A stretch of DNA of 64,000 bases from an uncultured Lachnospiraceae bacterium. Lineage in GTDB: Bacteria > Bacillota > Clostridia > Lachnospirales > Lachnospiraceae. The notes under the pieces are model-generated. The model was given only the letters and a program-made list of their open reading frames with translations. It searched no databases and was not told where the DNA came from. A program made the position numbers and the translations under genes. The DNA is taken from contig CADAKQ010000004.1 in NCBI GenBank assembly GCA_902788555.1, positions 41,776-105,775 on the forward strand, written 5' to 3'. Below, one piece after another: positions 4,286-32,543 of the stretch. The stretch's first letter is position 1. Each line of letters starts with the position of its first letter.

Positions 4286-4307
4286 GCAAAGAGGAGAATG
4301 AACATAA

Positions 4308-6505: not shown

Positions 6506-6531
6506 GACAATAATAATTAGGAGAAGGATAA

Positions 6532-8239: not shown

Positions 8240-8258
8240 TCTGAGGAGAAGAAAAACT

Positions 8259-10100: not shown

Positions 10101-10141
10101 AATGAATATAGATGTGGGAATAATTGAACTTGTTGAAGAAA

Positions 10142-13411: not shown

Positions 13412-13495
13412 TGCTTTGATTATGATATAACAACAGATATTAAAAAAATAAGAAGAATCTATGAAAAAAATTAATATATAAAAGAAGGTGAAAAA

Positions 13496-14041
13496 ATGTT
13501 TTTTTTAGAAAATGATAAAATTGGATTACGTTCATTAAGTATGTTTGATGTTGAAAATAGTTATTATGAATGGTTGAATGATACGGAGATATGCAGATAC
13601 AACTCACACCATGTTATACCTATGACAAGGGAAAAGGCAGAAAAATATGTTGAATCAATTAATCAATCGAGTTCAGATATAGTTTTAGCGGTTATTACAA
13701 AAAATGAAAAAGAACATATAGGTAATATTTCGTTGCAAAAAATAGATATGTTTAGTAGACAAGCAGAAATAGCGTTTTTGTTCGGTAATAAAGAATATTC
13801 AAATAAAGGATATGCCACGATGGCTGCATTTTTATTAATAGATCATGCTTTTACAGCTATGGGATTAAATAGATTATATTTTGGAACAATGGTTGAAAAT
13901 GTTAGAATGCAAAGGGTTGGAGAAAAATGTTTTTTTAAAAAAGTTGGATGTAGGAGACAAGCTATATATAAAAATGGTGCTTATCATGATATTTTTGATT
14001 ATGATTTATTAGTCGAAGATTGGATTAAATGTAGAGGATGA
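13496..14041 (+). CDS. GNAT-family N-acetyltransferase (candidate PseH function)
   Basis: A 181-residue acetyltransferase of the RimJ/RimL-like GNAT group. EWLNDTEICRYNSH is the N-terminal substrate region, and EHIGNISLQKID with AEIAFLFGNKEYSNKGYATMAAFLL gives the acetyl-CoA pyrophosphate loop and following helix. NRLYFGTMVENVRMQRVGEK and a Gly-Ala-Tyr-His-Asp turn complete the fold. Pseudaminic acid synthesis needs PseH to acetylate the 4-amino group between PseC and PseG, and no other GNAT is in the cluster. It is the best candidate, though it lies 5 kb beyond pseI and could act on another amino sugar. AGAAGGTG precedes the ATG. Confidence 0.65.
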   Translation: MFFLENDKIGLRSLSMFDVENSYYEWLNDTEICRYNSHHVIPMTREKAEKYVESINQSSSDIVLAVITKNEKEHIGNISLQKIDMFSRQAEIAFLFGNKEYSNKGYATMAAFLLIDHAFTAMGLNRLYFGTMVENVRMQRVGEKCFFKKVGCRRQAIYKNGAYHDIFDYDLLVEDWIKCRG

Positions 14042-14083: not shown

Positions 14084-15202
14084 ATGAATATAGTGAATTT
14101 AGGTTCTTGGGCAGCAGAATTTGATAATAATGGATTATTGTGGTTCTCTGATTTTAATTATGGAGGATTATATAAGTATGATTTAAATAAAAGAAAAATA
14201 ATTTTAGAACATTTTTTCGAAGATATTGAGATTGATACAGAGGCTTTACATAGAAGATTAATTGTTCGAAATAATGAAATATTGTTGTTCCCATTAAATG
14301 ATTCTTATGTGAGAATTTATAATATAGATGAAAAAAAAGAAAGAAAAATAAATATGCCAGACCAATTTTTAGATGGAAAAATCATAGAAAATGATAAAAA
14401 AGTTTGGGCTATTTCATTTGATGGATGTTACAAATTTGATTTTGAAATAGAAAAATTTATTAAAGATGATTTTTTATCTAATATTTTTTCGTTAATTGAT
14501 AAAGAGGAAAGGTGTAATATTAGAATAAATGCTACTGATAATTATATAATTGCTTGTAATAATTCAAGTAAAAGTGTTATTTCAATAGACCTTATAAACA
14601 TGAATTATAAGCAATTCAATTTAAATTTTATTAATGAAAAAATACAAGATATTTTTTTAATTAATCAAAGATATTGGATACTTCTTGAGGATTCTTATGA
14701 CGTTTATTCAAGAGATATAGATGATGAATCTTATATAAAGTATGAAGCAGAAACTAGAGATTTAGAAAATCATAATATTTTTGCACCTTATTCTAGAATT
14801 ATTCAATGGGAGAATCATTTGATATTACCTAATTATTATGGAAAATCGATAATGAAGATAAACCTTAATAATAAAACAATAGAACCTTTATATAAAAATG
14901 AGTTAGATAATCAAGAATCACAATGGATAGATTATGGAGCTTATTATTATAGAACTATTGTATATGAAGATTATTTGTTTTTTATCCCACAAAGGTCAAA
15001 ATATATTTTAAAATTTGATAAGAATTTAAATCTTGTGGATAAATACTTAATGCAAAATGAAGTTAATGCAAAATTTATTGAAGATGTTATGGTTTCAAGA
15101 AAAAGAAAATCAGTGATAATGCATGAAGATGACAAGATTTTTTCAGTTGATAATTATTTGAAATGCATAAGACGATTAGAGGAGAGTAAAAATGTATCCT
15201 GA
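14084..15202 (+). CDS. Predicted beta-propeller-like protein of unknown function
   Basis: A 372-residue protein that I cannot assign to a named family. It has no signal peptide or membrane helix. The sequence alternates short beta strands with turns rich in N, D, G and Y, and repeats an aromatic-Lys-Phe/Tyr-Asp ending (LYKYDLNKRK, CYKFDFEIEK, ILKFDKNLN) about every 40-60 residues. That is the look of a 6- or 7-bladed propeller. AGGGGG lies before the ATG. The gene is very AT-rich and overlaps the next one by 11 bases, so both are probably made together. A role in recognising glycan or the adjacent GT is only a guess. Confidence 0.45.
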   Translation: MNIVNLGSWAAEFDNNGLLWFSDFNYGGLYKYDLNKRKIILEHFFEDIEIDTEALHRRLIVRNNEILLFPLNDSYVRIYNIDEKKERKINMPDQFLDGKIIENDKKVWAISFDGCYKFDFEIEKFIKDDFLSNIFSLIDKEERCNIRINATDNYIIACNNSSKSVISIDLINMNYKQFNLNFINEKIQDIFLINQRYWILLEDSYDVYSRDIDDESYIKYEAETRDLENHNIFAPYSRIIQWENHLILPNYYGKSIMKINLNNKTIEPLYKNELDNQESQWIDYGAYYYRTIVYEDYLFFIPQRSKYILKFDKNLNLVDKYLMQNEVNAKFIEDVMVSRKRKSVIMHEDDKIFSVDNYLKCIRRLEESKNVS

Positions 15203-16679
15203 TATTACATCTAAAAAAAGATTCTATTTATCAAATAAAAAAATATGGAGAAATGATAATTATATTTATAAAAATGAGAAAGAATGTATTTATGTTGTTC
15301 ACACACTATCATACCACTTTCAATATAATGTTTTATTGGATTTGGTTTCGAAAGGATTACAAAAAAAACATGGTCTCCCAATTTATGCACTTTCGGTAGG
15401 AGAGCGATATTATTCATTTGTTGAAGGCGATAAGTCCTTTGGAATAGATGCTTTTTATATTGATGATAATAAACTAATTAATGAATATGCATTAATTTAT
15501 AAAGAAGAAATTAATAAAATAGTAAATAAACTATATAAAAATAAAGATGAATTGCTGAAATTTAAATATAAAGGTATTTCTTGTGGAGATTGCATATGGG
15601 ATTATATTTTGGGTATTACATTAGAATACGATAGTATTTCTAGGGAACATTTTAAAAGTATAATAGAAAAGACAGTAGGAATAGTTGAGATCGCTTTTTC
15701 TGCTTTTAAAATACATAAACCGGCATATGTTGTAGTTGATGAGGCTGTTAGGTTGGAGGGATTGTATGCAAATGTCGCAATGAAGTATGGAGCGAAAGTT
15801 GTTATGCCTAATTTATCTTCGGCATATCATTTTGTAATGGATTCTAAAGATAAGAAAATATGTAAAATTGCACAAAGAAGAGGTGAGGCTATTTTAAATT
15901 ATGCTAAAAGCGAAGGATTTAAATCAAAAAATAAATTTTTATATGATGCACCAGAAAAAAAATTAGAAAATAGCTTATTAAAAAATGGAAAAAAGAATGC
16001 TTTTATTTTTTTACATGTTTTTTCAGATGCTCCAAGAGTGTCATATAATAACAAAATATATACAGATTATGTTGAATGGTTTAAAGAAACACTAAAAATT
16101 GTGAATCAAATTGAAGGTGTAAATTGGATAGTTCGAGATCATCCAGGGGCAAAAGGGTCAAAACAGCCATTGTTTATAAAAAAAATTTGTGAACAATATG
16201 GAAATAAGAATATTATTATGTCTGAAGATGGTATGTCTAGGGAAGATATAATAAAAGAGGCAGATGTTGTTATAACGTGTGCTGGTGATGTAGGTTTGGA
16301 ATATTGGGCTTGTGGGATTCCAACAATTATGCTCGCAGAATCATTTTATAATAAATATGGAATATCATATTTAATGCATGATAAAGAGGAATATAAAAGT
16401 ACATTACAAAATTTGGATGCTTTAAAAAAACCTTCAAAAGAATCTGTACAATTGGCACAGGAAATAATTAGCAAATTTCAAAGTAGTATGGAAATAACAG
16501 ATTCATTGATGGGTTTGTTTAAAGATATTAGAAATAAAGAAATAAAAGGAATCAGATTAGAATATAGAGACTATGATTTATATAATTATGAATTTATTAA
16601 ACGATATATTGAATTGATTGATAGTGATAAAATAAAATCAAGTTCTTGTTATACGTTGGATTATTTAATGGAGGAATAA
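15192..16679 (+). CDS. Capsule-type GT-B glycosyltransferase-like protein
   Basis: A 495-residue cytoplasmic protein with two Rossmann-like halves. The N-half contains CIYVVHTLSYHFQYNVLLDL and KPAYVVVDEAVRLEG. The C-half contains AFIFLHVFSDAPR, NWIVRDHPGAKGS, DVVITCAGDVGLEYWACGIPTIML and a final helix region. The RDHP loop and the TCAGDVGLEYW turn match the donor site of capsule polysaccharide and CDP-glycerol-type GT-B enzymes. The sugar is not predictable. GAGGAGAG lies in the end of the preceding gene just before the ATG. Base composition is strongly AT-rich, like the genes on either side. Confidence 0.55.
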   Translation: MYPDITSKKRFYLSNKKIWRNDNYIYKNEKECIYVVHTLSYHFQYNVLLDLVSKGLQKKHGLPIYALSVGERYYSFVEGDKSFGIDAFYIDDNKLINEYALIYKEEINKIVNKLYKNKDELLKFKYKGISCGDCIWDYILGITLEYDSISREHFKSIIEKTVGIVEIAFSAFKIHKPAYVVVDEAVRLEGLYANVAMKYGAKVVMPNLSSAYHFVMDSKDKKICKIAQRRGEAILNYAKSEGFKSKNKFLYDAPEKKLENSLLKNGKKNAFIFLHVFSDAPRVSYNNKIYTDYVEWFKETLKIVNQIEGVNWIVRDHPGAKGSKQPLFIKKICEQYGNKNIIMSEDGMSREDIIKEADVVITCAGDVGLEYWACGIPTIMLAESFYNKYGISYLMHDKEEYKSTLQNLDALKKPSKESVQLAQEIISKFQSSMEITDSLMGLFKDIRNKEIKGIRLEYRDYDLYNYEFIKRYIELIDSDKIKSSSCYTLDYLMEE

Positions 16680-16683: not shown

Positions 16684-17094
16684 ATGCGTGCGTTATTTGA
16701 TAAATGTAATGTTTGGAAACGCTGGGTACAGGTCTACCAAAGTGGCAAACATATTAGTGATTATTTTATAATAAATAATTATAAAAAAATTGCTATATAT
16801 GGAATGGCGGATGTTGGAGATTTTTTATGTCGCGAATTAGTAAATTCAAATATTAACGTCAAATATGGAATCGACTTATCCAGAAAGTTTTGTAGTATTG
16901 ACATTCCAATAAGAACACCTGATGAAATAGATGATGATTTAGATGTGATAATTGTTACGGCTTTAAGTTCATTTTCGGATATATTTGATATGTTATTAAT
17001 AAAGATAAATGATCCAAATAAAATAATAGGATTAGATGAAGTTTTAGCTAGTTTAATCGTGGAGGATAAAAATGAAATGGAAAAACAAGGGTAA
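16684..17094 (+). CDS. Stand-alone Rossmann-like nucleotide/sugar-binding module
   Basis: A 136-residue protein that is almost entirely one small Rossmann-like unit: KKIAIYGMADVGDFLCREL (glycine turn), a second strand VKYGIDLS, and a third VIIVTALSSFSD. Its N-terminal ~35 residues (KRWVQVYQSGKHISDYF) also match the region preceding the same module at the end of the WbsX-like protein at 18.3 kb. It is therefore the free form of a domain that is fused to seven other proteins in this locus. No catalytic residues are evident. GGAGG in the preceding stop region provides the ribosome binding site. It overlaps the next gene by 23 bases. Confidence 0.6.
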   Translation: MRALFDKCNVWKRWVQVYQSGKHISDYFIINNYKKIAIYGMADVGDFLCRELVNSNINVKYGIDLSRKFCSIDIPIRTPDEIDDDLDVIIVTALSSFSDIFDMLLIKINDPNKIIGLDEVLASLIVEDKNEMEKQG

Positions 17095-18250
17095 AGAATT
17101 TGATGAAATATGGAAGGAAATGAAAATATCCTCAGATGAGGAAATATGTTTCTATTTATTTGGAGCAGGTAAACGTGGGACAGAATTGTGCTCACTCTTT
17201 AGGTTAATGGGACTTCTTCAAAACGTGAAAGCGTTTCTTGATAATGATAAAGCATTAATTAATACTGTGAAAGATGGTTTAAGTGTTCAGGAATTGTCTG
17301 GTTATATTCCGCGTAAAAATAGTATTGTTATAATATCGGTTGGTGAAAAATATGAAAAGGAAATTAGTGAGCAACTTGATGAATTTGGCTTAAAAAAAAA
17401 TGTTGATTATTTTTTATGGAATGACTTTTATAATTATTATTTTCCTTTAATTCTTTTGTATAAATATAATATATTATTTGATGATATGGTTCAGATATCA
17501 CTTACAGAAAGATGTACATTAAGATGTAAAAATTGTGCGCATACATGTCCTTATACAGATAAAAATAATAAGTTAGATTTAACTATAGACGAAGCAATGA
17601 ATAGTATAGATTCTTTTTTCGGAACATTTGATTATGTAAATAGATTTACATTATTAGGTGGTGAACCACTATTATACAAAAATATTTGTGAAGTTACACA
17701 GTATTTAGGAGAAAAATATAGAAGCAGAATCAATGATTGTTTTATTACAACAAATGCAACTATTATACCTAATGAACAGTTGTTAAATATTTGTAAGAAT
17801 TATAATATTGGATTTGAGATATCCGATTATCGCGTAGCTGTTCCTGCAATAAGAAATAGAGTTAATGAATTCATTGAATGTTTAGAGAAAGAGACAATAA
17901 AATATAGAGTATTGAATGACGATTGGATAGATTTGGGTTTTTTATATATCAATAATACGAATAAAGAAGCAGAAAGGATATTTGATTTATGTAAAGCTCC
18001 ATGCCATGAAGTACGATTGAATAGGTATTATACTTGTATTTTAGCAAGGTGTGCATCAGAAAATATTTACGCTAACGAAGGAAATGAGTATTACATTGAA
18101 ATAGGTAGTAAGGATGAAGTGACACGAAAGATTGCATTTGAGTTTATTCAGGGATATTGTCAGGAAGGATACTTAAAAATGTGTAAACATTGTAATGGAC
18201 TTTTTAGTAAAAATAATAAGGTAACTCCAGGAGAGCAGCTATTATTATAA
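17072..18250 (+). CDS. Rossmann module-radical SAM enzyme
   Basis: A 392-residue fusion. Residues ~25-115 are the Rossmann-like module (LFGAGKRGTEL, G31-G36). The radical SAM core starts near residue 140: C148-x3-C152-x2-C155 in CTLRCKNC binds the [4Fe-4S] cluster, and LLGGEPLL (GGEP 196-199) contacts SAM. The C-terminal region has more cysteines (LCKAPCHEVRL, TCILARC, GYC, MCKHC), which could bind an auxiliary cluster as in SPASM proteins. This is not a known pse-pathway enzyme. In context it may modify a sugar or polyol group or act on a nucleotide-sugar. GGAGGA sits 5 bases before the ATG. Confidence 0.75.
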   Translation: MKWKNKGKEFDEIWKEMKISSDEEICFYLFGAGKRGTELCSLFRLMGLLQNVKAFLDNDKALINTVKDGLSVQELSGYIPRKNSIVIISVGEKYEKEISEQLDEFGLKKNVDYFLWNDFYNYYFPLILLYKYNILFDDMVQISLTERCTLRCKNCAHTCPYTDKNNKLDLTIDEAMNSIDSFFGTFDYVNRFTLLGGEPLLYKNICEVTQYLGEKYRSRINDCFITTNATIIPNEQLLNICKNYNIGFEISDYRVAVPAIRNRVNEFIECLEKETIKYRVLNDDWIDLGFLYINNTNKEAERIFDLCKAPCHEVRLNRYYTCILARCASENIYANEGNEYYIEIGSKDEVTRKIAFEFIQGYCQEGYLKMCKHCNGLFSKNNKVTPGEQLLL

Positions 18251-18268
18251 ATATGAGGATAAAATAAT

Positions 18269-19822
18269 ATGAAAGTACTTGCATACTATTTACCACAATA
18301 TCATAGAGTGCCAATAAATGATAAATGGTGGGGAGAAGGTTTTACAGAGTGGACATCTGTAAAAAAATCACAGCCACTTTATGAAAAACATTATCAGCCA
18401 CATGTTCCATTAGGCGGTAATTATTATAATCTCCTAGAAAAAGAAACTATGATATGGCAAGCAGAATTAATGCATAATTATTGTATCGATGGAATGTGTT
18501 TTTATCATTATTGGTTTTCAGATAAAGAACGTGTATTAGAAAAACCAGCTGAAAATTTATTAATGTGGACAGATGTAAATATGCCATTTTGCTTCTCTTG
18601 GGCAAATGAATCATGGTTAAATAAATGGAGTCATAGAGAAGGATTATTATGGGCTGAAAATAAAGAAGAAAAGAATAAAGAGTTAGAATTTATTTTTTTA
18701 CAAACATATGGAAGAGAAAAAGAATGGGAAAATCATTTTAACTATTTATATCCATTTTTTAACGATGAAAGATATATCAAAATTGATAATAAACCTTTAT
18801 TTGTTATACATGATTTATATAATATTCCGTGTTGTCATGAAATGATAGTGTATTGGAACGAATTAGCAAAAAATAAAGGCTTAAAAGGTATATATATTTT
18901 AGGAGGAGGTTTCCCTGATGTAAAGTGTAATGTGGATGGGTATATGACACATGAACCTGGAATGATAAGAAATTCTTTGAAATCCATTAATTTTGGGGAA
19001 CCTACATTAATATCTTATAAAGATGCCGTTGATGAAATTCTTGCTCAGAAAAATGTTAAAGAAAAACAAATAGTATTTACAACATTTTGTAGTTATGATA
19101 CAACACCTCGATATGGACTGGATGGCGATGTTTATGAAGGTGCGACACCGGATTTGTTTATGAGTCATCTTATGAAACTTATGGCAAAAAATCAAGCTGC
19201 TGGTATGGATATGGTCTTTATTGATGCATGGAATGAATGGGGTGAGGGCATGCATCTAGAACCTGATGAAAAATATGGATATGCATGGTTGGAAGCTGTA
19301 AAAAATGCAAAAGAAAGATATATAGATTATGTTGAGAAATATAAAAAAGAAATATCCTATTACAGTGAAAAAGAATTTAAAATAATATGTAATAGTAAAA
19401 AATGGGAGTTATATACATCTATATTTGATAGATGGATGAATTTGAGAGAAAAGAATATTAATATATCAGATTATTTAAAGAAAAATCATTTTAATAGAAT
19501 TATGTTATATGGAGTAGGCATTTTTTCAGAGCATATGATTTTGGAGTGTAAAAAAAATGATGTTAGTGTAATTGGAATAATAGATCGTTCTAAACATTTT
19601 TCTGTAAATGACATAGAAGTATATCAGATGAGTAATGATTTACCTAATGTAGATGTTATTGTTGTTACGGCTATTTATTCTATGGATGATATATGTAATG
19701 AAATTAGAAAATATAATAAAGAGATTAAAATTTTGTCGTTATTAGAATTAATTCTTTTTGCTGAAGAAACATTTTTGATAGATAATAAAAAAGTTTATAA
19801 ATTGGAAGGACAAGTTGTCTAA
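18269..19822 (+). CDS. WbsX-like (GH99-related) protein with C-terminal Rossmann module
   Basis: A 517-residue protein. Residues 1 to ~345 form the Glyco_tran_WbsX domain: MKVLAYYLPQYHRVPIND, WWGEGFTEWTSV, YHYWFSDKERVLE, FSWANESW and DAWNEWGEGMHLEPD are its conserved blocks. This domain is a GH99-like TIM barrel common in O-antigen and capsule loci. Residues 408-500 are the Rossmann-like module (RIMLYGVGIFSEH, VIGIIDRS, VIVVTAIYSMDD), preceded by an ISDYL segment shared with the free-standing copy at 16.7 kb. It is cytoplasmic by absence of a signal peptide, which fits biosynthesis better than glycan breakdown. The fusion suggests that the module serves a common cofactor or partner. Confidence 0.75.
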   Translation: MKVLAYYLPQYHRVPINDKWWGEGFTEWTSVKKSQPLYEKHYQPHVPLGGNYYNLLEKETMIWQAELMHNYCIDGMCFYHYWFSDKERVLEKPAENLLMWTDVNMPFCFSWANESWLNKWSHREGLLWAENKEEKNKELEFIFLQTYGREKEWENHFNYLYPFFNDERYIKIDNKPLFVIHDLYNIPCCHEMIVYWNELAKNKGLKGIYILGGGFPDVKCNVDGYMTHEPGMIRNSLKSINFGEPTLISYKDAVDEILAQKNVKEKQIVFTTFCSYDTTPRYGLDGDVYEGATPDLFMSHLMKLMAKNQAAGMDMVFIDAWNEWGEGMHLEPDEKYGYAWLEAVKNAKERYIDYVEKYKKEISYYSEKEFKIICNSKKWELYTSIFDRWMNLREKNINISDYLKKNHFNRIMLYGVGIFSEHMILECKKNDVSVIGIIDRSKHFSVNDIEVYQMSNDLPNVDVIVVTAIYSMDDICNEIRKYNKEIKILSLLELILFAEETFLIDNKKVYKLEGQVV

Positions 19823-19828
19823 AAATCA

Positions 19829-21106
19829 ATGAATAATATATCGGATATTATTAAGTTCTGTAAAAGTATAAATAGAATAGTAATATATGGCGATGGTAAT
19901 ATAGGTAGAACAGTTCGAGTTTTTTTAGAAGAACAAGGATTTAAAGTAAGTAGTTTTGTAGTAACGAATATAGATATTCCTCATATTTTGATGGGAGTAG
20001 AAGTTGTAAGTATAAATGATTACATTTCAAGAATATCTTCTAATGCATATAACTCTATAGGAGTAATAATATGCATGAATGAAAAAAATATTGAGGGAGC
20101 AAAAAAAAAGTTAGCAGAGGTAGGATTAAATAGTTATTTTATTGTAAATGATATGCTGTTTCAGCAGATCTTTATAAAGTCAAATTTTCTTTATAAATAT
20201 GATAAACCGGATAAAAAAATTAATACCTTGATGTATCACAGAGTTGGTTCGTTTGAAAAAGATCCTTTTGAACTTGCAGTTGATGATTCTACATTTGAGG
20301 AACAGATTAAACATTTAAAAGAAAACTATACAATTCTAAAAAGTGATGATAAATGGTCAGATATAGATGAAAAATCTGTGGTTTTAACATTTGACGATGG
20401 TTATGTCGATTTCTATAGCAAAGTATACCCTGTTCTTAAAAAATATAATGTCCCGGCGACAGTTTTTATTTCTACCGGAAATATAGATACTTACAATGAG
20501 TTTTGGTGGGATGAGTTGGAAAAATTATTTTTAGAAACATCTATGATTCCTGAAGAAATAACAATTATTGATGATAAGTTTCTAAAAGACGATTATTCAG
20601 ATAATGAAAGTCTGCTGTTTGCGGTACATAAGGTATTGTTATCACTACCTCATTTAGAAAGAAAAAAGATAATTGAATCATTAAAAAAACAATTCAATTT
20701 TTCTTCTTATAAAAGAGATAAGTACAGAGTATTAACAAGAGCTGAAATAGTAAAATTAGCAGATGATCCCCTTATAACAATTGGAGCACATACTGTATCA
20801 CACATTGTATGTGATAAAGAAAATGAAGATGTGCAGCGTAGAGAGATAATTGAGTCAAAAGAAAAGCTTGAAGAAATAATTAAAAAACCTGTAAGTGTAT
20901 TTGCATATCCAAATGGAGGTTACAATGCACGTATTCAGAAAATACTTTCTGAATTTGGTTTTATCAGAGCTTTTACAGTCGAACTTGGATGCGCAGATGA
21001 GAATTCTCCACAATATCAAATTCCAAGAAATGTAGTTAAAGCATGGAAAGGAAAGAAATTTGAATCAGCAATGCGTGGAATGTTTACAGCATTTAAAACT
21101 ATTTAA
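19829..21106 (+). CDS. Rossmann module-polysaccharide deacetylase (NodB) fusion
   Basis: A 425-residue protein with the Rossmann-like module first (RIVIYGDGNIGRTVR, glycine turn 21-26; strands to ~115). A NodB domain follows from ~131: NTLMYHRVG, TFDDGY (187-192, with the metal and catalytic Asp), GAHTVSH (H321, H325 metal ligands) and VFAYPNGG. It lacks a signal peptide, unlike secreted peptidoglycan or PNAG deacetylases, so it probably deacetylates a cytoplasmic lipid-linked or nucleotide-linked amino sugar. No clear Shine-Dalgarno precedes ATG 19829, which starts 7 bases after the previous stop, so re-initiation is likely. Confidence 0.75.
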   Translation: MNNISDIIKFCKSINRIVIYGDGNIGRTVRVFLEEQGFKVSSFVVTNIDIPHILMGVEVVSINDYISRISSNAYNSIGVIICMNEKNIEGAKKKLAEVGLNSYFIVNDMLFQQIFIKSNFLYKYDKPDKKINTLMYHRVGSFEKDPFELAVDDSTFEEQIKHLKENYTILKSDDKWSDIDEKSVVLTFDDGYVDFYSKVYPVLKKYNVPATVFISTGNIDTYNEFWWDELEKLFLETSMIPEEITIIDDKFLKDDYSDNESLLFAVHKVLLSLPHLERKKIIESLKKQFNFSSYKRDKYRVLTRAEIVKLADDPLITIGAHTVSHIVCDKENEDVQRREIIESKEKLEEIIKKPVSVFAYPNGGYNARIQKILSEFGFIRAFTVELGCADENSPQYQIPRNVVKAWKGKKFESAMRGMFTAFKTI

Positions 21107-21122
21107 AGATTAGGAATCTAAA

Positions 21123-22508
21123 ATGAAAATAATCTTATTTGGTGCAGGAGGTTTTCTCCGTGATAATGAAAATAACATAAAAAAACTTCCTAATACAGAA
21201 ATAGTAGGTATAGTTGATAATAATAAGTCTGTTATAGGTACTAAATGTCTGGGTCATATAGTTACAGACTTAGAGAATGTTAAGATTAAGTTTGACTATG
21301 TTGTGATAACAAGTATTTATGCTGTTGAAATAGAAAAACAACTAATAAATAGTGGATATGATAAACATATAATAAAAAGATTTAGAGAATATGAGGCACT
21401 TGCCAATAAGTATAATCAAATAAAATTTGTAAAAAACGAAGATTTTTGTGATAAAAAGGCTATATTGGCTATTACACCTATAATTGAATATAATGGTGCA
21501 TGTATGGCTTTGTTATATGTTTTGGAACAATTAAAAAAGGTATATAACTACAGGGTAAGTCTGATTTCACCAAAATATAAGGATGGAATCATAGAATACG
21601 TCACAAATAAAGAAATTGAAGTTATTGTTTATCCAAATGTTGAGTTTGATAGCAAAAATGCATGGTTGGATAATTTCGATTATTATATTGTAAACACGTT
21701 GTTAATGAGAAAATGTTTGGAATTTATTAATCCGAAAAGAACCATCTGGTGGTTACATGAATCAGAAAGCTCTTATGTAATTGAACAAAGACTATGGGGT
21801 AACTTGGATAATAAATTAGAAAAGTGTGTCCATACATTCTGCGTAAGTAAAACAGAAAAAAAAGTATTTCAAAAGTACGTTTCTTCTGTTGAAGCAGAAG
21901 TGTTAGAGTATGGTTTGCCTGATGCGTTTGACAGCTGCTTGTATAATAATAAAACTCAAGATAAAAAGACAGTTTTTGCAGTTATTGGCTTTATTGCAAA
22001 AATAAAGGGACAGGATATCTTGCTTAAGGCCATACATAAGCTGCCCCCAAATTATCTTTCAAATTGTGAGTTTTGGATTATAGGTGACAATGATGATAAA
22101 GCTTTTTATGATGACATTAAAAGTAATATATATTATGAAAATATAAAGCTTTTGGGAGGAAAATCTCATAGTGAATTAGAGGTTCTTTATAAAAAGATAG
22201 ATGTAGTTGTATCTACATCGAGACAGGATTCTCTTCCAATTGTTGTTACAGAAGGCTTTATGCATCGAAAAATATGTATTATTTCTGATGTGATAGGAAC
22301 CACAGAGTATGTTGAAGATGGTGTACATGCGTTGTTTTTTAAAAGTGAAGACGATAGCGAGTTGGCAGAAAAAATTTGTTATGCGTTAGATCATAAAGAT
22401 GAAATGAAAAAAGTTGCAGAAAACGGAAGAAAAATATATGAAAAATATTTTTCAATAGAGCAGGTAGGGAAAAAATTTAATTCAATTTTTATGGAGATGA
22501 ATATATAA
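21123..22508 (+). CDS. Rossmann module-GT4 glycosyltransferase fusion
   Basis: A 461-residue protein. Residues 1 to ~95 are the Rossmann-like module (MKIILFGAGGF, VGIVDNNKSVIG, DYVVITSIYAVE). From ~113 comes a GT-B enzyme of the GT4 type: FAVIGFIAKIKGQDILLKAI, WIIGDNDDKAF, IKLLGGKSHSEL and TSRQDSLPIVVTEGFMHRK, where the E of the DxxPxxxxE-like loop binds the donor nucleotide. It ends with GRKIYEKYFSIEQVGKKF, typical of GT4 C-terminal helices. The sugar is unknown. AGGA lies before the ATG. Confidence 0.75.
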   Translation: MKIILFGAGGFLRDNENNIKKLPNTEIVGIVDNNKSVIGTKCLGHIVTDLENVKIKFDYVVITSIYAVEIEKQLINSGYDKHIIKRFREYEALANKYNQIKFVKNEDFCDKKAILAITPIIEYNGACMALLYVLEQLKKVYNYRVSLISPKYKDGIIEYVTNKEIEVIVYPNVEFDSKNAWLDNFDYYIVNTLLMRKCLEFINPKRTIWWLHESESSYVIEQRLWGNLDNKLEKCVHTFCVSKTEKKVFQKYVSSVEAEVLEYGLPDAFDSCLYNNKTQDKKTVFAVIGFIAKIKGQDILLKAIHKLPPNYLSNCEFWIIGDNDDKAFYDDIKSNIYYENIKLLGGKSHSELEVLYKKIDVVVSTSRQDSLPIVVTEGFMHRKICIISDVIGTTEYVEDGVHALFFKSEDDSELAEKICYALDHKDEMKKVAENGRKIYEKYFSIEQVGKKFNSIFMEMNI

Positions 22509-22512
22509 AATT

Positions 22513-24471
22513 ATGATTTACAGTTTTGATGTATTTGACACACTAATAACGAGAAAGACTTTAACACCGAAAGGTGTTTTTCTTTTTATGCAGGAATGGC
22601 TTAAAAAAGTTCCAAACTATAATTTTATGGCGGATAGTTTCGCTCTCTTGCGTGTGGATGCCGAGTTAAATGCTGTTAGATTTAACAAGGAAAGGGAAAT
22701 TGGACTTGACGACATATATGATGTGTTGGCTAAAAGATGTCATTTGAATGACTCTCAAAAACAGGAACTTATCAATATGGAGATAGAATCCGAAAAAAGA
22801 AATGTTGTTCCAATACAAAAGAATATAGATATATTAAAATCAATAATTGCCGAAGGGCATAAAGTAGTTCTAATATCAGATATGTATCTCACACACAATG
22901 TCATTAGAGAATTACTATGTCTTGTTGATGATGTATTTAAAGACATTAATATATATGTTTCCTGTGATTGTAATGCCAGAAAGCTGGATGGATCGCTGTT
23001 TAGATATGTTCAAATGAAGGAACAGGCAGGTTTTGATAATTGGATACATTATGGAGATAATGTAGTAGCAGATAATAATGTTCCGGAGGTTTATGGAATA
23101 AAAACCGTGTTGGTAGATGGATATAAACCTTTGCAGATTGAGAAAAAAATAAATGCCCATTTTTGTAATGAGCTTGATTATGCTACACAGTTTTTTTTAG
23201 GACTTATAAGAGGAGTATATAAAGAAGGAAGTAGCAATGCATACAGGATAGGATCTGTATGTGGAGGTGCTGTGTTATTTCCATATGTTGAGTGGGTTTT
23301 AAATGAATCTGTATATAGAAATATAAATACATTGTTATTTATGTCAAGAGATGGATATATACTTAAAAAGATAGCAGATATTATAATTAAAAAAAAACAA
23401 TATAATATAAATACACATTATGTATATGTTTCACGTAATCTTCTTAGAGCTAAGGGCGAAAAAGGTAAGCGGACAGCACAGTATATCTCTCAGTTTGTAG
23501 ATAAAGATGATAAATATGCACTTGTTGATTTTGATGGTACCGGACAATCACTGGTATCTCTGTCAGAAAATCTTAAGTCAAAGATATATGGTTTTTACTA
23601 TTATCTTGAAGGAAAACCAAGTGGGGAGACATTTGAATTTTACAGTTATTCATTTGTTCCTGCTAAAAGTGCAGTGTGTGAGGTGTTATGCAGGGCACCA
23701 CATGGAACTGTTCTTGATTATAAAGTGGATGATAAAAAACTGGTTCCGGTTATTGATTCTTCATGTGGTGATTTATGGGAAAAATCAGGTCTATATGAGT
23801 ATATAGATGGAGTAATGAATTTCACAGATACATATCTTAAATGGCTGGATGAGGATTTTGTTTTTGCTGATTTATTAAAAATCGGAAAGTATGTACTTCA
23901 TTATTGTGAAAATGAATATGATGAAGAGATAATGAAGTATATTGGTGATTTCCCTCATAGTGATAATAATGAAGAAGAGTCAGGCTGTTATGCTCCGATT
24001 TTAAGTAAAAATGAACTTGATGATATATATGGAAAAAGAGGAGATGAACCATTAGAAAATTATTATCATGGAGCAAATATTGAGTATTCTGTTAAAAGGA
24101 CATTGTATGGAAAGAGTTCATTTTTTGATTTTGTAATAAAATCAGTAAAGGACATGGAACAAGATGATAAGCTTTTAAGAGAGAAGGTTGTGATTTATGC
24201 AGCCGGAAAATATGGCTGTGAAGCATATTACAGACTGAGTAAAAACAAAGATGTCCGGGTTGTGGCATGGGTGGACAGCAATTATCAAAGATATAATGAT
24301 GAAAGAATAGAATCTCCTGTTGTTTTGAAAGAAAAGGATTTTGATTTTGTATTGGTTGCTCTTTCTGACAGTAATACTTTTTGTTCAGTAAAAAGAATGC
24401 TTGAGGATATGGGAATTGAAAGTAAAAAGATAATATGGATAATTGATTACTGGAAGGGATTTGTTGTATGA
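22513..24471 (+). CDS. HAD-superfamily hydrolase-like protein (COG5610 type) with C-terminal Rossmann module
   Basis: A 652-residue protein. The N-terminal ~210 residues are a HAD phosphatase-like domain: YSFDVFDTLIT holds the nucleophile motif DxD/DxF, VVLISDMYLTH is motif II, and HYGDNVVADN is motif IV. The middle part has a second strand-rich region (LLFMSRDGYILKKI, YALVDFDGTGQSL) typical of the large COG5610 proteins of glycan clusters. The last 95 residues (558-652) are the Rossmann-like module (KVVIYAAGKYGCEAY, VVAWVDSNYQ, FVLVALSDSN). It may dephosphorylate a sugar phosphate, but no substrate can be named. It overlaps the next gene by 4 bases. Confidence 0.65.
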   Translation: MIYSFDVFDTLITRKTLTPKGVFLFMQEWLKKVPNYNFMADSFALLRVDAELNAVRFNKEREIGLDDIYDVLAKRCHLNDSQKQELINMEIESEKRNVVPIQKNIDILKSIIAEGHKVVLISDMYLTHNVIRELLCLVDDVFKDINIYVSCDCNARKLDGSLFRYVQMKEQAGFDNWIHYGDNVVADNNVPEVYGIKTVLVDGYKPLQIEKKINAHFCNELDYATQFFLGLIRGVYKEGSSNAYRIGSVCGGAVLFPYVEWVLNESVYRNINTLLFMSRDGYILKKIADIIIKKKQYNINTHYVYVSRNLLRAKGEKGKRTAQYISQFVDKDDKYALVDFDGTGQSLVSLSENLKSKIYGFYYYLEGKPSGETFEFYSYSFVPAKSAVCEVLCRAPHGTVLDYKVDDKKLVPVIDSSCGDLWEKSGLYEYIDGVMNFTDTYLKWLDEDFVFADLLKIGKYVLHYCENEYDEEIMKYIGDFPHSDNNEEESGCYAPILSKNELDDIYGKRGDEPLENYYHGANIEYSVKRTLYGKSSFFDFVIKSVKDMEQDDKLLREKVVIYAAGKYGCEAYYRLSKNKDVRVVAWVDSNYQRYNDERIESPVVLKEKDFDFVLVALSDSNTFCSVKRMLEDMGIESKKIIWIIDYWKGFVV

Positions 24472-25586
24472 CAATGTTTAATAATGAAATTAATATTTTA
24501 CAAAACACAGAATCTGTCTATATATATGGTGCCGGTGATGTGGCGAGGGAAGTTGCATGGTGCCTTATGAATAAACCATACGAAAAGAAGATTGACGCAT
24601 TTATTGTAAGTGGGGATGCAAAAGATGAGAAACTTTTTGATGCTCCTATCGTTTCATGCAATTCAGAAATGATAGATTATACTAAATTGGTTATTATTGC
24701 AGTTTTGGAAAAGTATGTGAATGAAATAATGGATATACTTAAGGTAAAGGGCGCTGAAAATATAATGGTTCTTTCTTTTGAGAGTGATCTGTGGTGTGAA
24801 GTAAGGAAAAAAGTTTATTTTGAATATGTAAACAATAATTATGGATTTAAAGCAAAGTTATTAGATAATGAAAACTTGTTTTTAAAAGAAGAAAAAAAAG
24901 AGTTAAATACAAATGTCTATGTTGTTAAGAGCTATTTTGATAAGAAACTTAATGAAAAATGGACTGATAAAAGCTGGGAAACAGATATTCAGGTTGGTGC
25001 AGCTTTAACAGATAATATAATATGTGATATCAGGGATAATTTAGGAGAAAATATTTCAGAAAAAAATAAGAAGTATTGTGAACTCACGGCACTTTATTGG
25101 ATTTGGAAAAACACAAGTGAAAACTTTGTGGGCATATGCCACTATAGGAGGCATTTTTTAATAGATGAAATGATAATAGAAAAACTTCCTTATTCTGATG
25201 TGGATGCTGTAGTTACAATTCCTATGGTTAATATTCCTAGTGTTGAAGCAATGTACGAAAAGAACCATGACATAAAAGATTGGGATATAGTTAGAGAAGC
25301 TTTAAACGAAATTAGTCCGGAATATGTAACTGATTTTGATAATGTTTCAAAAGGTGTTTTTTATGTTGCTTATAATATGTTTATAATGCGCAGAGAATGG
25401 CTTGATAGGTACTGCGAGTGGTTATTCCCGATTCTTGAATACTGTGAGCAAAGAATTGGGGAAAAGGAAGATGTTTATCAAAACAGGTATGCAGGATTTC
25501 TTGCAGAGCGTCTTTTTACGATTTTCTTACTGCATCATAAGGATGATATGAATATAGTGTTTGCAGAAAAACATTTTTTGCAATGA
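24468..25586 (+). CDS. Rossmann module-DUF4422 glycosyltransferase-like protein (copy 1)
   Basis: A 372-residue protein. Residues ~15-105 are the Rossmann-like module (VYIYGAGDVAREV, glycine turn 21-26). From ~148 comes a DUF4422 domain, a GT-A-like family found in capsule and EPS loci: IQVGAALT, NISEKNKKYCELTALYWIWKN, VGICHYRRHF, YNMFIMRREW and GFLAERLFTIFL. The end of this gene is followed by two strong terminators, so it is the last gene of the glycan transcription unit. A paralogue with the same two-domain layout lies at 28.0 kb, beyond an inserted ATPase/TOPRIM gene pair. Confidence 0.75.
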   Translation: MTMFNNEINILQNTESVYIYGAGDVAREVAWCLMNKPYEKKIDAFIVSGDAKDEKLFDAPIVSCNSEMIDYTKLVIIAVLEKYVNEIMDILKVKGAENIMVLSFESDLWCEVRKKVYFEYVNNNYGFKAKLLDNENLFLKEEKKELNTNVYVVKSYFDKKLNEKWTDKSWETDIQVGAALTDNIICDIRDNLGENISEKNKKYCELTALYWIWKNTSENFVGICHYRRHFLIDEMIIEKLPYSDVDAVVTIPMVNIPSVEAMYEKNHDIKDWDIVREALNEISPEYVTDFDNVSKGVFYVAYNMFIMRREWLDRYCEWLFPILEYCEQRIGEKEDVYQNRYAGFLAERLFTIFLLHHKDDMNIVFAEKHFLQ

Positions 25587-25635
25587 AGCCCTAAATTACG
25601 AAAAAATACTAAAATATAGATTGAATTTTAATGTA

Positions 25636-25739
25636 ACGAACGATAAAAAATACGTTTGATTTATCGTTCGTTTTGTTTGTCTATATTGTTAAAGACAACA
25701 TACATCCGTAATTTTTTTACGGATATGTGTTGCTTTTTT
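25636..25739 (+). terminator. Two strong tandem intrinsic terminators
   Basis: The first pairs 25636-25647 (ACGAACGATAAA) with 25660-25671 perfectly over 12 bp and continues into TTTTGTTTGT. The second pairs 25696-25711 with 25717-25732 over 16 positions (one mismatch, one wobble) around a TTTTT loop and continues into CTTTTTT. Two such elements in a row make a firm end for the glycan operon that starts near loaP. They may stop even antiterminated polymerase. Confidence 0.85.
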
Positions 25740-25763
25740 GATATATTTTGGATATACTATAAT
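25738..25763 (+). promoter_or_regulatory. Possible promoter of the ATPase/TOPRIM pair
   Basis: TATAAT (25758-25763) stands 48 bases before the ATPase start. The only -35-like hexamer, TTGATA (25738-25743), gives a short 14-base spacer and overlaps the T-run of the second terminator. The -10 element is good and the -35 assignment is doubtful. Confidence 0.35.
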
Positions 25764-25811
25764 ATATTATTTTAATAATTTTTAACAGATTATAATTAAT
25801 GGAGGATTTCT

Positions 25812-26957
25812 ATGCTAAAAAGATTTGAATTGAGAAATTTTAAAAATTTTAAAGATGATATAGTTGTAGATTTCTCTAAAACAGGTGGCTATAAGTATAA
25901 TACTGACTGTATTACTAACGATATGATAGGGAAAATGTTGATTTATGGTAGAAATGCAACCGGAAAAACTAATTTAGGGAAAGCGATAATGGATATAAAT
26001 CATGAAATTATAAGTAGTTTTTCTTTATATGACGATTATATTGTCAATGCTGACATTTCTGATGGCAAAATTTATTATTCCTATTGTTTTGTTTTTGATA
26101 CAGATGAGGTTATTTATAATTATTTCAAAAATGGATCCGGTAAGCTAATATCGGAAAAATTTTTAATTAACAACAAAAAGATATTTGAATGTAATTTTGA
26201 GAATATGAAGTTTGATTTTAAAAATTTAAAACAAATAGCTGCTCAAACTGTGAATTCGGATATATATACAAATGCTTATTTATTTGATAATGATGAACAG
26301 ACATCTTCTGAACTCCCATTTTTAAAATGGCTTTTAGGAAATGCTGTTTTTCCAAAAGAGTCAGTTATGATAAAATTACGCTCTTATATAGAGAGTATGT
26401 CATATTTGACAGTAGGAGGTTTGGAAGGAATTGTATTAAGGCGACGTTACAAAAGGTATTATGATATTTTGGAAGATAGAAATGAATTGGTCAACTTTGA
26501 GAAGTTTCTAAATGAAATGGGGGTTGAATGCAGTTTAACACTTGAAAAGCTTCCTGATGGTCAAAATGAACTGTATTTTAAACACAAGAAACCAATACCA
26601 TTTCTGGAAAATGCTTCGAGTGGTACAATCGCTTTGATGAATTTATATTTTAGATTTGTCCAAAAATTTAGATTAATGTCTTTTATATACCTTGATGAAT
26701 TTGATGCATTTTATCATTATGAGATGGCAGATAATCTTGTAAAGTATTTCAAAAAAAATTTTGAAAATACTCAAATTATTATGACCACACATAATACTAA
26801 TTTAATGACAAATCGTCTTATGAGACCGGATTGCATTTTTATATTATCAAGGTGGGGGTCTCTAACTGCATTGTGTGATGCTACAGAAAGAGAATTGCGA
26901 GAAGGGCACAATTTGGAAAAGATGTATATAAGTGGGGAATTTGAAAAGTATGAATGA
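25812..26957 (+). CDS. AAA/ABC-type ATPase of a putative two-gene defence pair
   Basis: A 381-residue ATPase of the AAA_15/AAA_21 (OLD/SMC-like head) group. It begins MLKRFELRNFKNFKDD and has Walker A GRNATGKTN (46-54). Its short insertion lacks a long coiled coil, and it has a signature-like ASSGTIALMNLY, Walker B FIYLDEFDAF (~292) and an IIMTTHNTNLM switch. This architecture is shared by the ATPase subunits of abortive-infection and anti-phage pairs (AbiL, PARIS, PtuA) and by OLD. It overlaps the next gene by 8 bases and has its own TGGAGG site. It stands between two glycan terminators and a DUF4422 paralogue, so it is probably an insertion unrelated to glycan synthesis. Exact system membership is unknown. 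Confidence 0.7.
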   Translation: MLKRFELRNFKNFKDDIVVDFSKTGGYKYNTDCITNDMIGKMLIYGRNATGKTNLGKAIMDINHEIISSFSLYDDYIVNADISDGKIYYSYCFVFDTDEVIYNYFKNGSGKLISEKFLINNKKIFECNFENMKFDFKNLKQIAAQTVNSDIYTNAYLFDNDEQTSSELPFLKWLLGNAVFPKESVMIKLRSYIESMSYLTVGGLEGIVLRRRYKRYYDILEDRNELVNFEKFLNEMGVECSLTLEKLPDGQNELYFKHKKPIPFLENASSGTIALMNLYFRFVQKFRLMSFIYLDEFDAFYHYEMADNLVKYFKKNFENTQIIMTTHNTNLMTNRLMRPDCIFILSRWGSLTALCDATERELREGHNLEKMYISGEFEKYE

Positions 26958-27975
26958 GATTGGAGATTTTATTCCAAGAAAACGAAGTCAAAACTTATTG
27001 ATAGTAGAAGGTAATCATGAAAAGAACATTATATTCAGACAGCTCTTTAAGTGTTTTCCTGAATTAAACATTGATATGGATGATATTTGGATATATGGTA
27101 CTAATATTTATGTTCTTTACAATGATATTGTAAAAGAGTATGGTGAAGACTGGAATGTTGAGGATGTTGATTTGCCTTTTGTAATAAGCAAAAAACAATA
27201 TCTAAATCAACGAAGATATAAAGATGATTTTGTGAATATTATATTGGTGTTTGATTATGAGAGGCATGATCCGAATTTTTCTGAAGAAAAAATAATGATT
27301 TTACAGGAATATTTTAATGATATGGCCAATGTAGGACAGTTATACATTAATTATCCTATGATAGAATCTTATCAGGATATTGAATGTATACCGGATGATA
27401 ATTATATTGATAAAAAAGTATCTGTTACAATTAATCCGGGAAGGAAATATAAAGCATTGGTAAATAATTCTCCGATTAAAAAGATTATTGAACTGCCGGA
27501 AAAAATGATAGAAATATTAATTGAAAAGCTGTTTGTTAGTGAAGAAGACGGAGAAGTATGTGTTAAAGAATTATTAAATTTGTCAAGTGATGAATCATTG
27601 AAACAGGAAATTGGAAAAGAGTTAGAAGTAATATCAAAAAAGAATATAATAACTGTTCAGTTTCAATTTGAAGATTTAATCAGGAAATTAAATTATATAA
27701 ATCGTAATATCTCATACTGGGCATACTTACGAGAAGTTTTTCAAGATTTAATAAAGATGAATTTAAAGAAGGCAGTTAGAATACAAAATAGTCCACTTAA
27801 GAATTTTAACAATTATAGAGATTTGTATAATGCTTTGGATTTGACTGATGTTTTAAAACAGCAAAACAGCATGAGTAGTGATTTTAAAAATGGGTATATA
27901 TGGATTTTAAATACATGTTTATTTATTGTAGTAGATTATAATATGAATTTATTAATAAATGATTCTAAGTTATAA
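26950..27975 (+). CDS. TOPRIM-like partner protein of the ATPase
   Basis: A 341-residue protein. LLIVEGNHEKNIIF (E20) near the N-terminus and ILVFDYERHDPNF (D102, E104) form the Glu...Asp-x-Glu-like metal site of TOPRIM domains, as in OLD nucleases, RloB/AbiLii and AriB. YPMIESYQDIEC follows, similar to the region after the acidic motif in RloB-like proteins. The C-terminal ~150 residues are helical and unassigned. The start is set at ATG 26950; a GTG at 26932 is in frame but has no better site. Tight overlap with the ATPase gene argues for a complex. Nuclease or toxin activity is inference from the motifs. Confidence 0.55.
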   Translation: MNEIGDFIPRKRSQNLLIVEGNHEKNIIFRQLFKCFPELNIDMDDIWIYGTNIYVLYNDIVKEYGEDWNVEDVDLPFVISKKQYLNQRRYKDDFVNIILVFDYERHDPNFSEEKIMILQEYFNDMANVGQLYINYPMIESYQDIECIPDDNYIDKKVSVTINPGRKYKALVNNSPIKKIIELPEKMIEILIEKLFVSEEDGEVCVKELLNLSSDESLKQEIGKELEVISKKNIITVQFQFEDLIRKLNYINRNISYWAYLREVFQDLIKMNLKKAVRIQNSPLKNFNNYRDLYNALDLTDVLKQQNSMSSDFKNGYIWILNTCLFIVVDYNMNLLINDSKL

Positions 27976-28000
27976 AACAGTAAATGAGGATTGAGGTATT

Positions 28001-29092
28001 ATGTCATATATTGATAATAAAAATATTTATATCGCCGGAGCACATTCCCGCTCCCGTACTCTGAGGGTTTATCTGGAGTACCTGAAAGATGATTTGAAAG
28101 TATCAGCTTTTTTGGTATCCCCGGAAATGACTGATAATCCGGAAACTGTGGATGGTATTCCGGTTTTTTCAATCGCGAAAGATGGACTTGACACTTCTTG
28201 TCCGGTATATCTTGGTACTAGAGGAGTAAATCATGCCAAGCTTACGAAAGAATTATCAGAAGTTGGATTTACGGATATTCGTCCGGCTACGGTTGAGCTT
28301 GATAGTGAACTTCGAAATGAGTACATAAAAAAAAGATATGCAGAGGCAGGACGTAAGTTTGTTAGATTGGACATGCTGAGCGAAGAATGTGACGCTTTAG
28401 ATACTACTTTTGCAATATATGTTGCAACATCGGTATTTGACGGAAAACTCAGTACTCCGTACGAACCGGTTTCTGAAGAAAAAGTTATTCAGGTCGGAAC
28501 AGCGCTTGCAGATAAAAAGGTACCGGGGTGTGTATGTACAGATGATATAGGAGAAAATATTTCTGATAGAAACAGACAGTTTTGTGAGCTTACAGGCCTT
28601 TATTGGATATGGAAACATGCTAAGGAGGATTTTGTAGGACTTGTACATTATCGCAGACATTTTATTTTACCGGATAATTGGAAGGAGATAATGATACAAA
28701 ATAATATAGATGTTGTACTTCCTGTACCATTATATGTTCCGCCTAGCGTAAAAGAGAATTATCGTGAAAGACATGATGCTTCAGATTGGGATTATATGGA
28801 ACAGTATTTTGATGAATATTTGCCTGATGAAAAGGAAGACTTGCTTAGGATTATGAATGGTAATCTTTATAGTCCTTGCAATATGATTATTGCCAAGAAG
28901 GAAGTTTTTTCTGAGCTTTGTGAGTGGTTATTCCCTATCCTTTTTGCTGTAGTAGAGCACGGCGGTGAAAAGGAGGACCGGTATCAGAGAAGGTATCCGG
29001 GATTTTTGTCGGAAAGGCTTATTACGTATTTTTTTGAAAGCCGTAGGGATAAATATAATGTAGTTTTTTGTAATAAAAATTTTTTGGAGTGA
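28001..29092 (+). CDS. Rossmann module-DUF4422 glycosyltransferase-like protein (copy 2)
   Basis: A 363-residue paralogue of the protein at 24.5 kb. Residues ~8-95 are a more divergent form of the Rossmann-like module (NIYIAGAHSRSRTL, VSAFLVSPE). The DUF4422 domain follows with the same blocks: VIQVGTAL, NISDRNRQFCELTGLYWIWKH, VGLVHYRRHF, PCNMIIAKKEVF and GFLSERLITYFF. The gene is less AT-rich than copy 1, so the two are not a recent duplication. It follows the ATPase/TOPRIM pair and converges on a minus-strand gene at 29130 with only 37 bases between them. Confidence 0.75.
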   Translation: MSYIDNKNIYIAGAHSRSRTLRVYLEYLKDDLKVSAFLVSPEMTDNPETVDGIPVFSIAKDGLDTSCPVYLGTRGVNHAKLTKELSEVGFTDIRPATVELDSELRNEYIKKRYAEAGRKFVRLDMLSEECDALDTTFAIYVATSVFDGKLSTPYEPVSEEKVIQVGTALADKKVPGCVCTDDIGENISDRNRQFCELTGLYWIWKHAKEDFVGLVHYRRHFILPDNWKEIMIQNNIDVVLPVPLYVPPSVKENYRERHDASDWDYMEQYFDEYLPDEKEDLLRIMNGNLYSPCNMIIAKKEVFSELCEWLFPILFAVVEHGGEKEDRYQRRYPGFLSERLITYFFESRRDKYNVVFCNKNFLE

Positions 29093-32495: not shown

Positions 32496-32543
32496 TAATT
32501 CAATAAAATCTATATAAAACATCCGGAAGGAGTGACTGATTTT

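Follow-up and report, generated by a model that had tools for sequence, protein, structure and literature searches.

Why should one small domain be attached to enzymes as different as a radical SAM protein, a polysaccharide deacetylase and a glycosyltransferase? The question is raised by the window, the 64,000-nucleotide stretch of DNA from an uncultured Lachnospiraceae bacterium that was analyzed here, in which eight proteins encoded between 16684 and 29092, all on the forward strand, share a Rossmann-like module of ~90 residues (leave-one-out and iterated profile searches). The copies are numbered M1 to M8 in gene order. M1 is a free-standing protein of 136 aa (16684..17094; module at residues 31-111). 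The module is N-terminal in a radical SAM protein (M2, 17072..18250, residues 22-110; PF04055, E=1.8e-8), a NodB-type polysaccharide deacetylase (M4, 19829..21106, residues 12-103; PF01522, E=1.4e-28), a GT4 glycosyltransferase (M5, 21123..22508, residues 1-82; PF00534, E=1.3e-26) and two DUF4422 proteins (M7, 24468..25586, residues 12-99, and M8, 28001..29092, residues 5-93; PF14393, E=1.4e-54 and 5.8e-49), and C-terminal in a WbsX-family protein (M3, 18269..19822, residues 406-504; PF14307, E=1e-103) and a tentative HAD-like protein of 652 aa (M6, 22513..24471, residues 556-638; weak HAD matches). The answer that we prefer, and to which we give about an even chance, is that the module marks enzymes that act on glycans in clostridial flagellin-glycosylation islands, which it may recruit or hold together.

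The eight copies are homologous. Chance GxGxxG look-alikes were ruled out by leave-one-out profiles, with which seven of the eight held-out copies were the top non-seed protein of the window (E=0.019 for M1, 1.2e-5 for M4, 0.054 for M5, 0.0044 for M6, 9e-7 for M7 and 0.0014 for M8; M3 was recovered by both leave-one-out and iterated searches). The exception is M2, which ranked second among non-seed proteins (E=2.6) and reached E=4.9e-18 after iteration. With the best 14 matches of each of the eight leave-one-out searches taken together, the NAD-binding epimerase of the window appeared a single time, at 3.9 bits. M3 matches M1 with 31% identity across 99 aa, and a profile search of the genome gave, apart from the eight copies at this locus, a single weak match. 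AF2 models of M1 (pLDDT 95.6, pTM 0.88) and M8 (pLDDT 88.9) have the same core fold, preceded in M1 by two N-terminal helices. Both the searches and the two models thus uphold the sequence-only reading in its central claim, that one module occurs in eight proteins and is joined to unrelated enzymes.

That reading had also proposed a nucleotide-linked intermediate, cofactor or scaffold as the common ligand of the module; for a nucleotide-linked intermediate the analysis gave no support. NAD(P)-binding Rossmann domains follow a rule of GxGxxG plus an acidic residue ending strand 2, and only one of the eight window copies keeps this whole signature (the glycine loop of M8 is the most eroded), so a single nucleotide ligand common to all copies looks unlikely; the enzymes that make sugar nucleotides, moreover, seem to be mostly untagged (see below). 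Among 265 non-redundant modules, reduced from 281 matches, the first glycine is conserved in 96%, the second in 87% and the aspartate ending strand 2 in 76%. The best conserved positions are glycine, aromatic or aliphatic, with the exception of one acidic site, and no catalytic set is therefore evident. In the 188 modules of the tagged loci and the window, the acid is present in 148 and the glycine triplet complete in 105, and this triplet figure counts against our preferred reading as well. Overall, the module is a small Rossmann-like domain without apparent catalytic role, of the same type as PglD_N, C2185-like_N and Rex.

Each of these three families resembles the module in part. PglD_N is the N-domain of the NeuD, PglD and VioB sugar acetyltransferases, where it binds nucleotide sugar and is followed by an acetyltransferase with a left-handed beta-helix. 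The PglD_N (PF17836) gathering score of 23.4 bits is not reached by any of the eight window proteins; M5 comes closest with a below-cutoff match (19.8 bits, E=0.0012), followed by M6 (11.5 bits), and the other six are unmatched at E<=10, although in the wider family 9 of 80 modules match at E<=0.01. A hexapeptide acetyltransferase partner is absent from all eight (Pfam), and the module is instead joined to many other enzymes. The C2185-like_N model (PF22674), which we take to be named after the protein of structure 2g6t, has matches at E<=0.01 in 8 of these 80 (the best reaching 7e-11) but none at E<=10 in the eight window proteins; 2g6t, from Clostridium acetobutylicum, is the best Foldseek hit of the M1 model (E=0.0024), and DUF1919 provides a further link, since it is also among the module partners found here. 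We know of no function for C2185-like_N. Rex is a redox repressor that binds NAD(H) and has an N-terminal winged-helix DNA-binding domain. The Rex NAD-binding domain is matched by module profiles in PDB searches (1e-6 and 8e-9) and gives the best Foldseek hits of the M8 model (E=0.0015), ahead of PglB (E=0.0075) and the weaker matches to VioB and WeeI (E=0.11). The module differs from Rex in its incomplete glycine and acid signature (seven of eight window copies) and in the absence of a DNA-binding domain (Pfam, eight proteins; in M1 the core is preceded by no more than two helices).

These likenesses could mean that the module is a ligand-sensing domain, binding nucleotide sugar or NAD(H) and turning its enzyme on when the donor or redox supply is right. 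Profile matches to 3nkl, Rex, 2g6t and VioB fit such a role, as do the ranking of Rex-NAD+ and then the PglB N-domain for M8 and the conservation of the first two glycines and the strand-2 aspartate. The loss of the glycine triplet from many modules, and of the full signature from all but one window copy, speaks against it, as does the top match of the M1 model, 2g6t, an entry without assigned function. Nor would sensing alone explain why the module is confined to loci poor in polytopic membrane proteins, and we consider this possibility rather unlikely.

That confinement emerged when loci of other genomes were compared. The module recurs among loci of Clostridia, which disposes of a single peculiar locus as an explanation and makes the one-locus scope of the sequence-only reading too narrow. 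Eighty public WbsX loci, extending no more than 10 kb to either side, fall into 24 tagged loci, in which 195 of 406 ORFs carry the module, and 56 plain loci that are nearly devoid of it (5 of 897 ORFs), where tagged denotes at least three module proteins, a cut chosen after the counts were seen. From the first to the last module of the tagged loci, 195 of 275 ORFs bear it. Lengths and match positions suggest that the five hits in plain loci are four WbpM-like proteins (598-641 aa) and one NeuD-like protein (218 aa). With DUF4422 as the anchor (50 loci hand-picked from the matches, 28 with a long and 22 with a short frame; L196 was left out because its DUF4422 frame was lost to the ORF filter), at least two other modules are present in seven of eight tagged loci and any further module in none of 41 untagged ones (Fisher, 9e-8). 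The remaining tagged locus, L166, lacks a second module and counts against the preferred reading. Tagging is thus all-or-none per locus with two anchors, and this grouping of tagged enzymes with tagged enzymes fits the assembly line that had been envisaged, if not the nucleotide-linked intermediate that it was thought to share.

Tagged and plain loci also differ in their membrane proteins. By a simple Kyte-Doolittle scan, an ORF with at least six hydrophobic segments is present in 4 of 24 tagged versus 48 of 56 plain WbsX loci (p=5e-9), and in none of 8 tagged versus 28 of 41 untagged DUF4422 loci (p=5e-4). Lineage alone does not account for the pattern: the genome of the window also contains an untagged DUF4422 protein in locus L176, which has five polytopic ORFs and no modules, and similar pairs are seen in G067 (L194 versus L018), G294 (L188 versus L211) and G336 (L203 versus L163). 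A docking code specific to each locus was looked for but is not apparent, which counts against the preferred reading: modules are no more alike within than between loci (0.204 versus 0.202); the nearest neighbor lies in the same locus for 14 of 180 modules (8.2 expected, and up to 21 in shuffles).

The partners of the module include glycosyltransferases, WbsX, deacetylase, radical SAM, methyltransferase and DUF4422 proteins. It occurs at either end of proteins in 43 BLAST partner clusters, mostly on one side within a given cluster, and also as small separate proteins. The one-sidedness, together with the fact that for 89 of 180 modules (17 expected) the nearest neighbor has a partner of the same family, could reflect an old cassette pool of tagged families circulating among the flagellin islands of Clostridia, the module having little present function. 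To produce 43 clusters, attachment at both ends and separate copies, such a pool would need repeated gain; core positions are also conserved in spite of a mean module identity of ~20%, and the M1 and M8 models are confident, all of which makes this account improbable. A still smaller chance attaches to a role like that of a carbohydrate-binding domain, in which each module binds its own catalytic domain or the acceptor sugar and the enzymes do not communicate. The module does adjoin many glycan-acting catalytic folds, but the same families lack it elsewhere, small separate copies occur, and the logo has only one conserved aromatic position, directly before the glycine loop.

What stays untagged is also informative. 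Sugar-nucleotide families account for at least 4 of 157 tagged versus at least about 15 of the 75 interspersed proteins that are untagged (p=2e-5), an indicative comparison of lower bounds on both sides, taken from the best 25 of 38, 42 and 72 Pfam families with one protein assumed per family hit; 75 of the 76 untagged ORFs between modules were scanned, leaving out one minus-strand ORF of L077. This indicates that sugar-nucleotide enzymes are mostly untagged. The same 75 proteins include 10 GT4-type and 9 GT2 glycosyltransferase matches, which count against the preferred reading. MptE-like domains, a Pfam family that presumably covers the Maf flagellin transferases, are present in 4 of 157 tagged proteins (among the families listed).

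The link to flagellin begins with the position of the window: a flagellin gene lies 5.4 kb upstream of its start. The order upstream is FlgK, FlgL, FliW, FliD, FliS, FlgN-like, flagellin, LicD, a DUF3880 GT and ribulose-phosphate epimerase. Within the window, an island part on the forward strand (2428..14041; Pfam), in which iterated searches found no module, encodes in order a NusG-like protein, a nonulosonate-type set (3254-8239; Polysacc_synt_2, DegT, Glyco_tran_28_C, CTP_transf_3 and NeuB), MaoC/hexapeptide, formyltransferase, MocA, a second DegT, a below-cutoff polyST-like match and GNAT. An untagged Capsule_synth-like gene on the same strand (15192..16679; PF05159, E=5.7e-5) ends 4 bp before M1. 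The glycan genes are therefore contiguous with flagellar genes, and the block includes genes of the nonulosonate and sugar-nucleotide kind. By the crude hydropathy test, not one of the 56 ORFs scanned in the window shows six or more hydrophobic segments, which fits an island without lipid-linked export or polymerization.

Roughly two thirds of the genomes that were examined have the module in a flagellar neighborhood. In 14 of 23 genomes (among the matches listed; 16 of the 24 tagged loci plus 7 relatives), a module and a flagellin-domain gene share a contig and are no more than 60 kb apart. For 18 further genomes the distance is at most 45 kb in 11, where a rough estimate, with flagellin-site and module-cluster numbers entered by hand, would give ~1.7. 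These 18 were hand-picked from 44 with a match, mainly those with at least two listed matches, and at most 10 candidates were scored per genome. In the control (34 of the 56 plain loci, mostly from possibly motile taxa), WbsX is within 60 kb of such a gene in 0 of 34 genomes, although 18 of the 34 have one. Because PF00669 also matches FlgL and FlgK, proximity here means proximity to flagellin-type genes. Among the places listed, no module cluster near a flagellin-domain gene was found in nine of the 23 genomes (G014, G146, G147, G149, G152, G153, G155, G157 and G158) and seven of the 18 (G201, G294, G394, G496, G611, G678 and G713), and these count against the preferred reading. Contigs are short in some of these genomes, and G149 contains no flagellin-domain gene.

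The window locus resembles the flagellin-glycosylation islands of Clostridium and Geobacillus (PMC13317340, PMC5109656) in having glycan genes that adjoin flagellin, along with a variable region and nonulosonate genes. The word Rossmann is absent from both main texts, and a literature search found no paper describing this tagging of glycan enzymes. In one of these papers, TPR repeats are reported as the part of one Maf transferase that recognizes flagellin (PMC13317340).

Under the preferred reading, the module has become in Clostridia a tag on many enzymes acting on a growing glycan, typically in flagellin-glycosylation islands, and the same families lack it in loci resembling export-type polysaccharide loci. 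The tag would bring the enzymes to, or keep them together on, a soluble cytoplasmic acceptor, most simply flagellin that is still to be exported, and its binding partners would be other modules, a shared hub or the acceptor itself; the tagging is observed, this acceptor and this function are inferred. More tentatively, and we think with the balance somewhat against it, the system could be a biosynthetic counterpart of the cellulosome, in which one Rossmann-derived tag, borne by dozens of unrelated glycan enzymes, lets these interchangeable enzymes form a soluble factory on flagellin that has not yet been exported, with the small separate module protein as a possible hub. Islands could then swap enzymes freely, provided that the enzymes bear the tag.

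In gut Lachnospiraceae, flagellin is a prominent antigen for the host, and its glycosylation is accordingly of interest. The tag pattern suggests a physical rule by which variable flagellin-glycan islands may stay functional during enzyme exchange. The module would also be a sequence handle that separates soluble, protein-linked glycan enzymes from the same enzymes in export pathways, and the tag may serve as a natural test case for enzyme scaffolds.

The WbsX protein was used to scan public genomes, and the ORFs of the best 80 named loci were searched with a profile of the module, the Rossmann-like unit common to eight window proteins at 16684-29092 (copies M1 to M8). This search of other genomes, which the sequence-only reading had suggested as a check, found 3 to 13 module proteins in each of 24 loci (195 of 406 ORFs in sum), termed tagged, and the module in 5 of 897 ORFs of the remaining 56, termed plain; the loci divide sharply into module-rich and nearly module-free. 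L075, the closest of these loci and from a Lachnospiraceae MAG, has eight consecutive tagged ORFs, and L084 has a run of eleven. The WbsX ORF itself is tagged in 21 of the 24. Small module ORFs directly adjoin plain WbsX genes at L117:9989-11595 and L119:8803-11986, as if the module could act as a separate protein beside an untagged WbsX. In L095 the match to M3, the WbsX copy, continues through a frame change into a small module ORF, and the two may therefore be a single broken gene.

As a second anchor, a search of 200 genomes of the family supplied 50 DUF4422 loci, classed by whether the DUF4422 protein itself bears the module; one could not be judged and is outside the counts. Two or more additional modules are present in seven of the eight tagged loci and none in the eighth; of the 41 untagged loci, 0 have any module. 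The window's own genome has a third, untagged DUF4422 gene, whose locus (L176) contains five polytopic ORFs and zero modules. Tagging is thus a general pattern extending beyond the window locus. Some species carry many tagged loci, since the 7 Mb genome of L085 (G152) has 54 module matches on at least four contigs.

Of the modules, 93 lie at the C-terminus, 76 at the N-terminus and 11 internally; 16 more are in proteins shorter than 200 aa, one truncated by the locus end, which are spread over 14 loci. Tandem double modules are present in two proteins, L018:12798-14123 and L087:11509-13194. With WbsX and the small proteins excluded, 157 tagged proteins were compared with Pfam (E≤1e-5). Among the families listed, the leading partners are GT2 (45), GT4-type (24), RgpF (11) and FkbM methyltransferase (7), with four each for DUF4422, DUF1919 and MptE-like, and lower counts for TupA, LicD, GT-D, TylF, NodB-type and others; the first batch gave six radical SAM and four GT11 partners. 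The partners form 43 groups, within which the side of the module is mostly constant (C-terminal in 44 of 49 members of the largest). Sugar-nucleotide enzymes seem scarce among tagged proteins, on counts that are indicative only (among families listed, at least 4 of 157 versus at least about 15 of 75 untagged interspersed ORFs, p=2e-5), which favours a tag that prefers enzymes touching the glycan. Untagged GT2 and GT4 proteins are also present among the interspersed ORFs.

ORFs with at least six hydrophobic segments are found in 4 of 24 tagged versus 48 of 56 plain WbsX loci (Fisher 5e-9), and in 0 of 8 tagged versus 28 of 41 untagged DUF4422 loci (Fisher 5e-4). On this basis plain loci look like lipid-linked, exported polysaccharide systems, whereas most tagged loci do not.

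The region immediately upstream of the window encodes FlgK, FlgL, FliW, FliD, FliS, FlgN-like, flagellin, LicD, a DUF3880 glycosyltransferase and ribulose-phosphate epimerase, followed at the window start by a nonulosonate-type set and a NusG-family protein (2428-3189; PF02357, E=2e-13) that heads this part of the island; processive antiterminators of the LoaP type can stand first in long glycan operons. Genes with a flagellin domain (PF00669, a family that includes FlgL and FlgK as well) are present in 22 of 23 tagged versus 18 of 34 plain genomes (p=4e-4). Among the matches listed, a module lies within 60 kb of one on the same contig in 14 of the 23; no plain-locus WbsX does so in the 34 (nearest ~68 kb). 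When the same scan is confined to the WbsX of tagged loci and to genomes with flagellin-domain genes, 5 of 15 are near versus 0 of 18 plain (p=0.013). Of 18 further genomes, selected from 44 with matches in a class-wide search of 391, 11 have a module within 45 kb of such a gene, where a rough estimate with hand-set parameters predicts about 1.7. Some tagged loci sit away from flagellin genes, and acceptors other than flagellin may therefore exist. Flagellin-glycosylation islands and the module's superfamily are already known; full-text searches of open-licence papers, a set without most subscription papers, found no mention of the shared tag.

Other window genes match candidate defence families. 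An ATPase/partner pair at 25812-27975, between the DUF4422 genes bearing M7 and M8, matches PDC-M12A (E=3e-89) and PDC-M12B (E=1e-27), and two ATPase genes downstream of the tagged genes, 32532-33983 and 35609-36952, match PDC-S27 (E=3e-193) and PDC-S01 (E=2.5e-139). A 454-aa protein after M8 (29130-30494, minus strand) has a weak, below-cutoff TPR match and no module in the module search.

Structures were predicted for two of the eight window copies. The free-standing M1, aligned with 79 other modules (pLDDT 95.6, pTM 0.88), is predicted to have two N-terminal helices followed by a minimal Rossmann-like core. The same core order is predicted for M8 (pLDDT 88.9), the copy with the most eroded motif, together with an extra strand that is a mere two-residue bridge in the M1 model. 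Neither model has a Foldseek match at E≤0.001, so the structural comparison is at most suggestive. The top match of M1 is 2g6t, an uncharacterised C. acetobutylicum protein (E=0.0024), then assorted methyltransferases and NAD(P) enzymes; those of M8 are Rex-NAD+ (0.0015), the PglB N-domain (0.0075) and 2g6t (0.0086). The module profile retrieves the PDB sequences 3nkl (a UDP-QuiN 4-dehydrogenase entry), Rex, 2g6t and VioB, and Pfam relatives of 80 modules (E≤0.01) are 2-Hacid_dh_C (13), PglD_N (9), C2185-like_N (8) and CoA_binding (6), with zero Pfam matches for M1. The module is therefore a distant branch of a known superfamily, largely without existing models.

The main rival to a recruiting role is that the module is a ligand sensor, and the sequence-only reading had proposed that the copies bind a shared nucleotide-linked intermediate, cofactor or scaffold. 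The full set of three glycines survives in 105 of 188 modules (2 of the 8 window copies), which makes a single dinucleotide or nucleotide-sugar ligand for all of them doubtful. Apart from one acidic site, the most strongly conserved residues are glycine, aromatic or aliphatic, which argues against the module itself being an enzyme. Catalysis probably does not depend on it, as the same catalytic families exist elsewhere without it. Module similarity tracks enzyme family, not locus, which means that a partner common to the copies would have to be a generic one: other modules, a hub (the free-standing protein, for example) or the acceptor. A Clostridium paper (PMC13317340) cites TPR repeats as the flagellin-recognising part of one Maf transferase. 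By analogy, we infer that the module would have a comparable recruiting role here.
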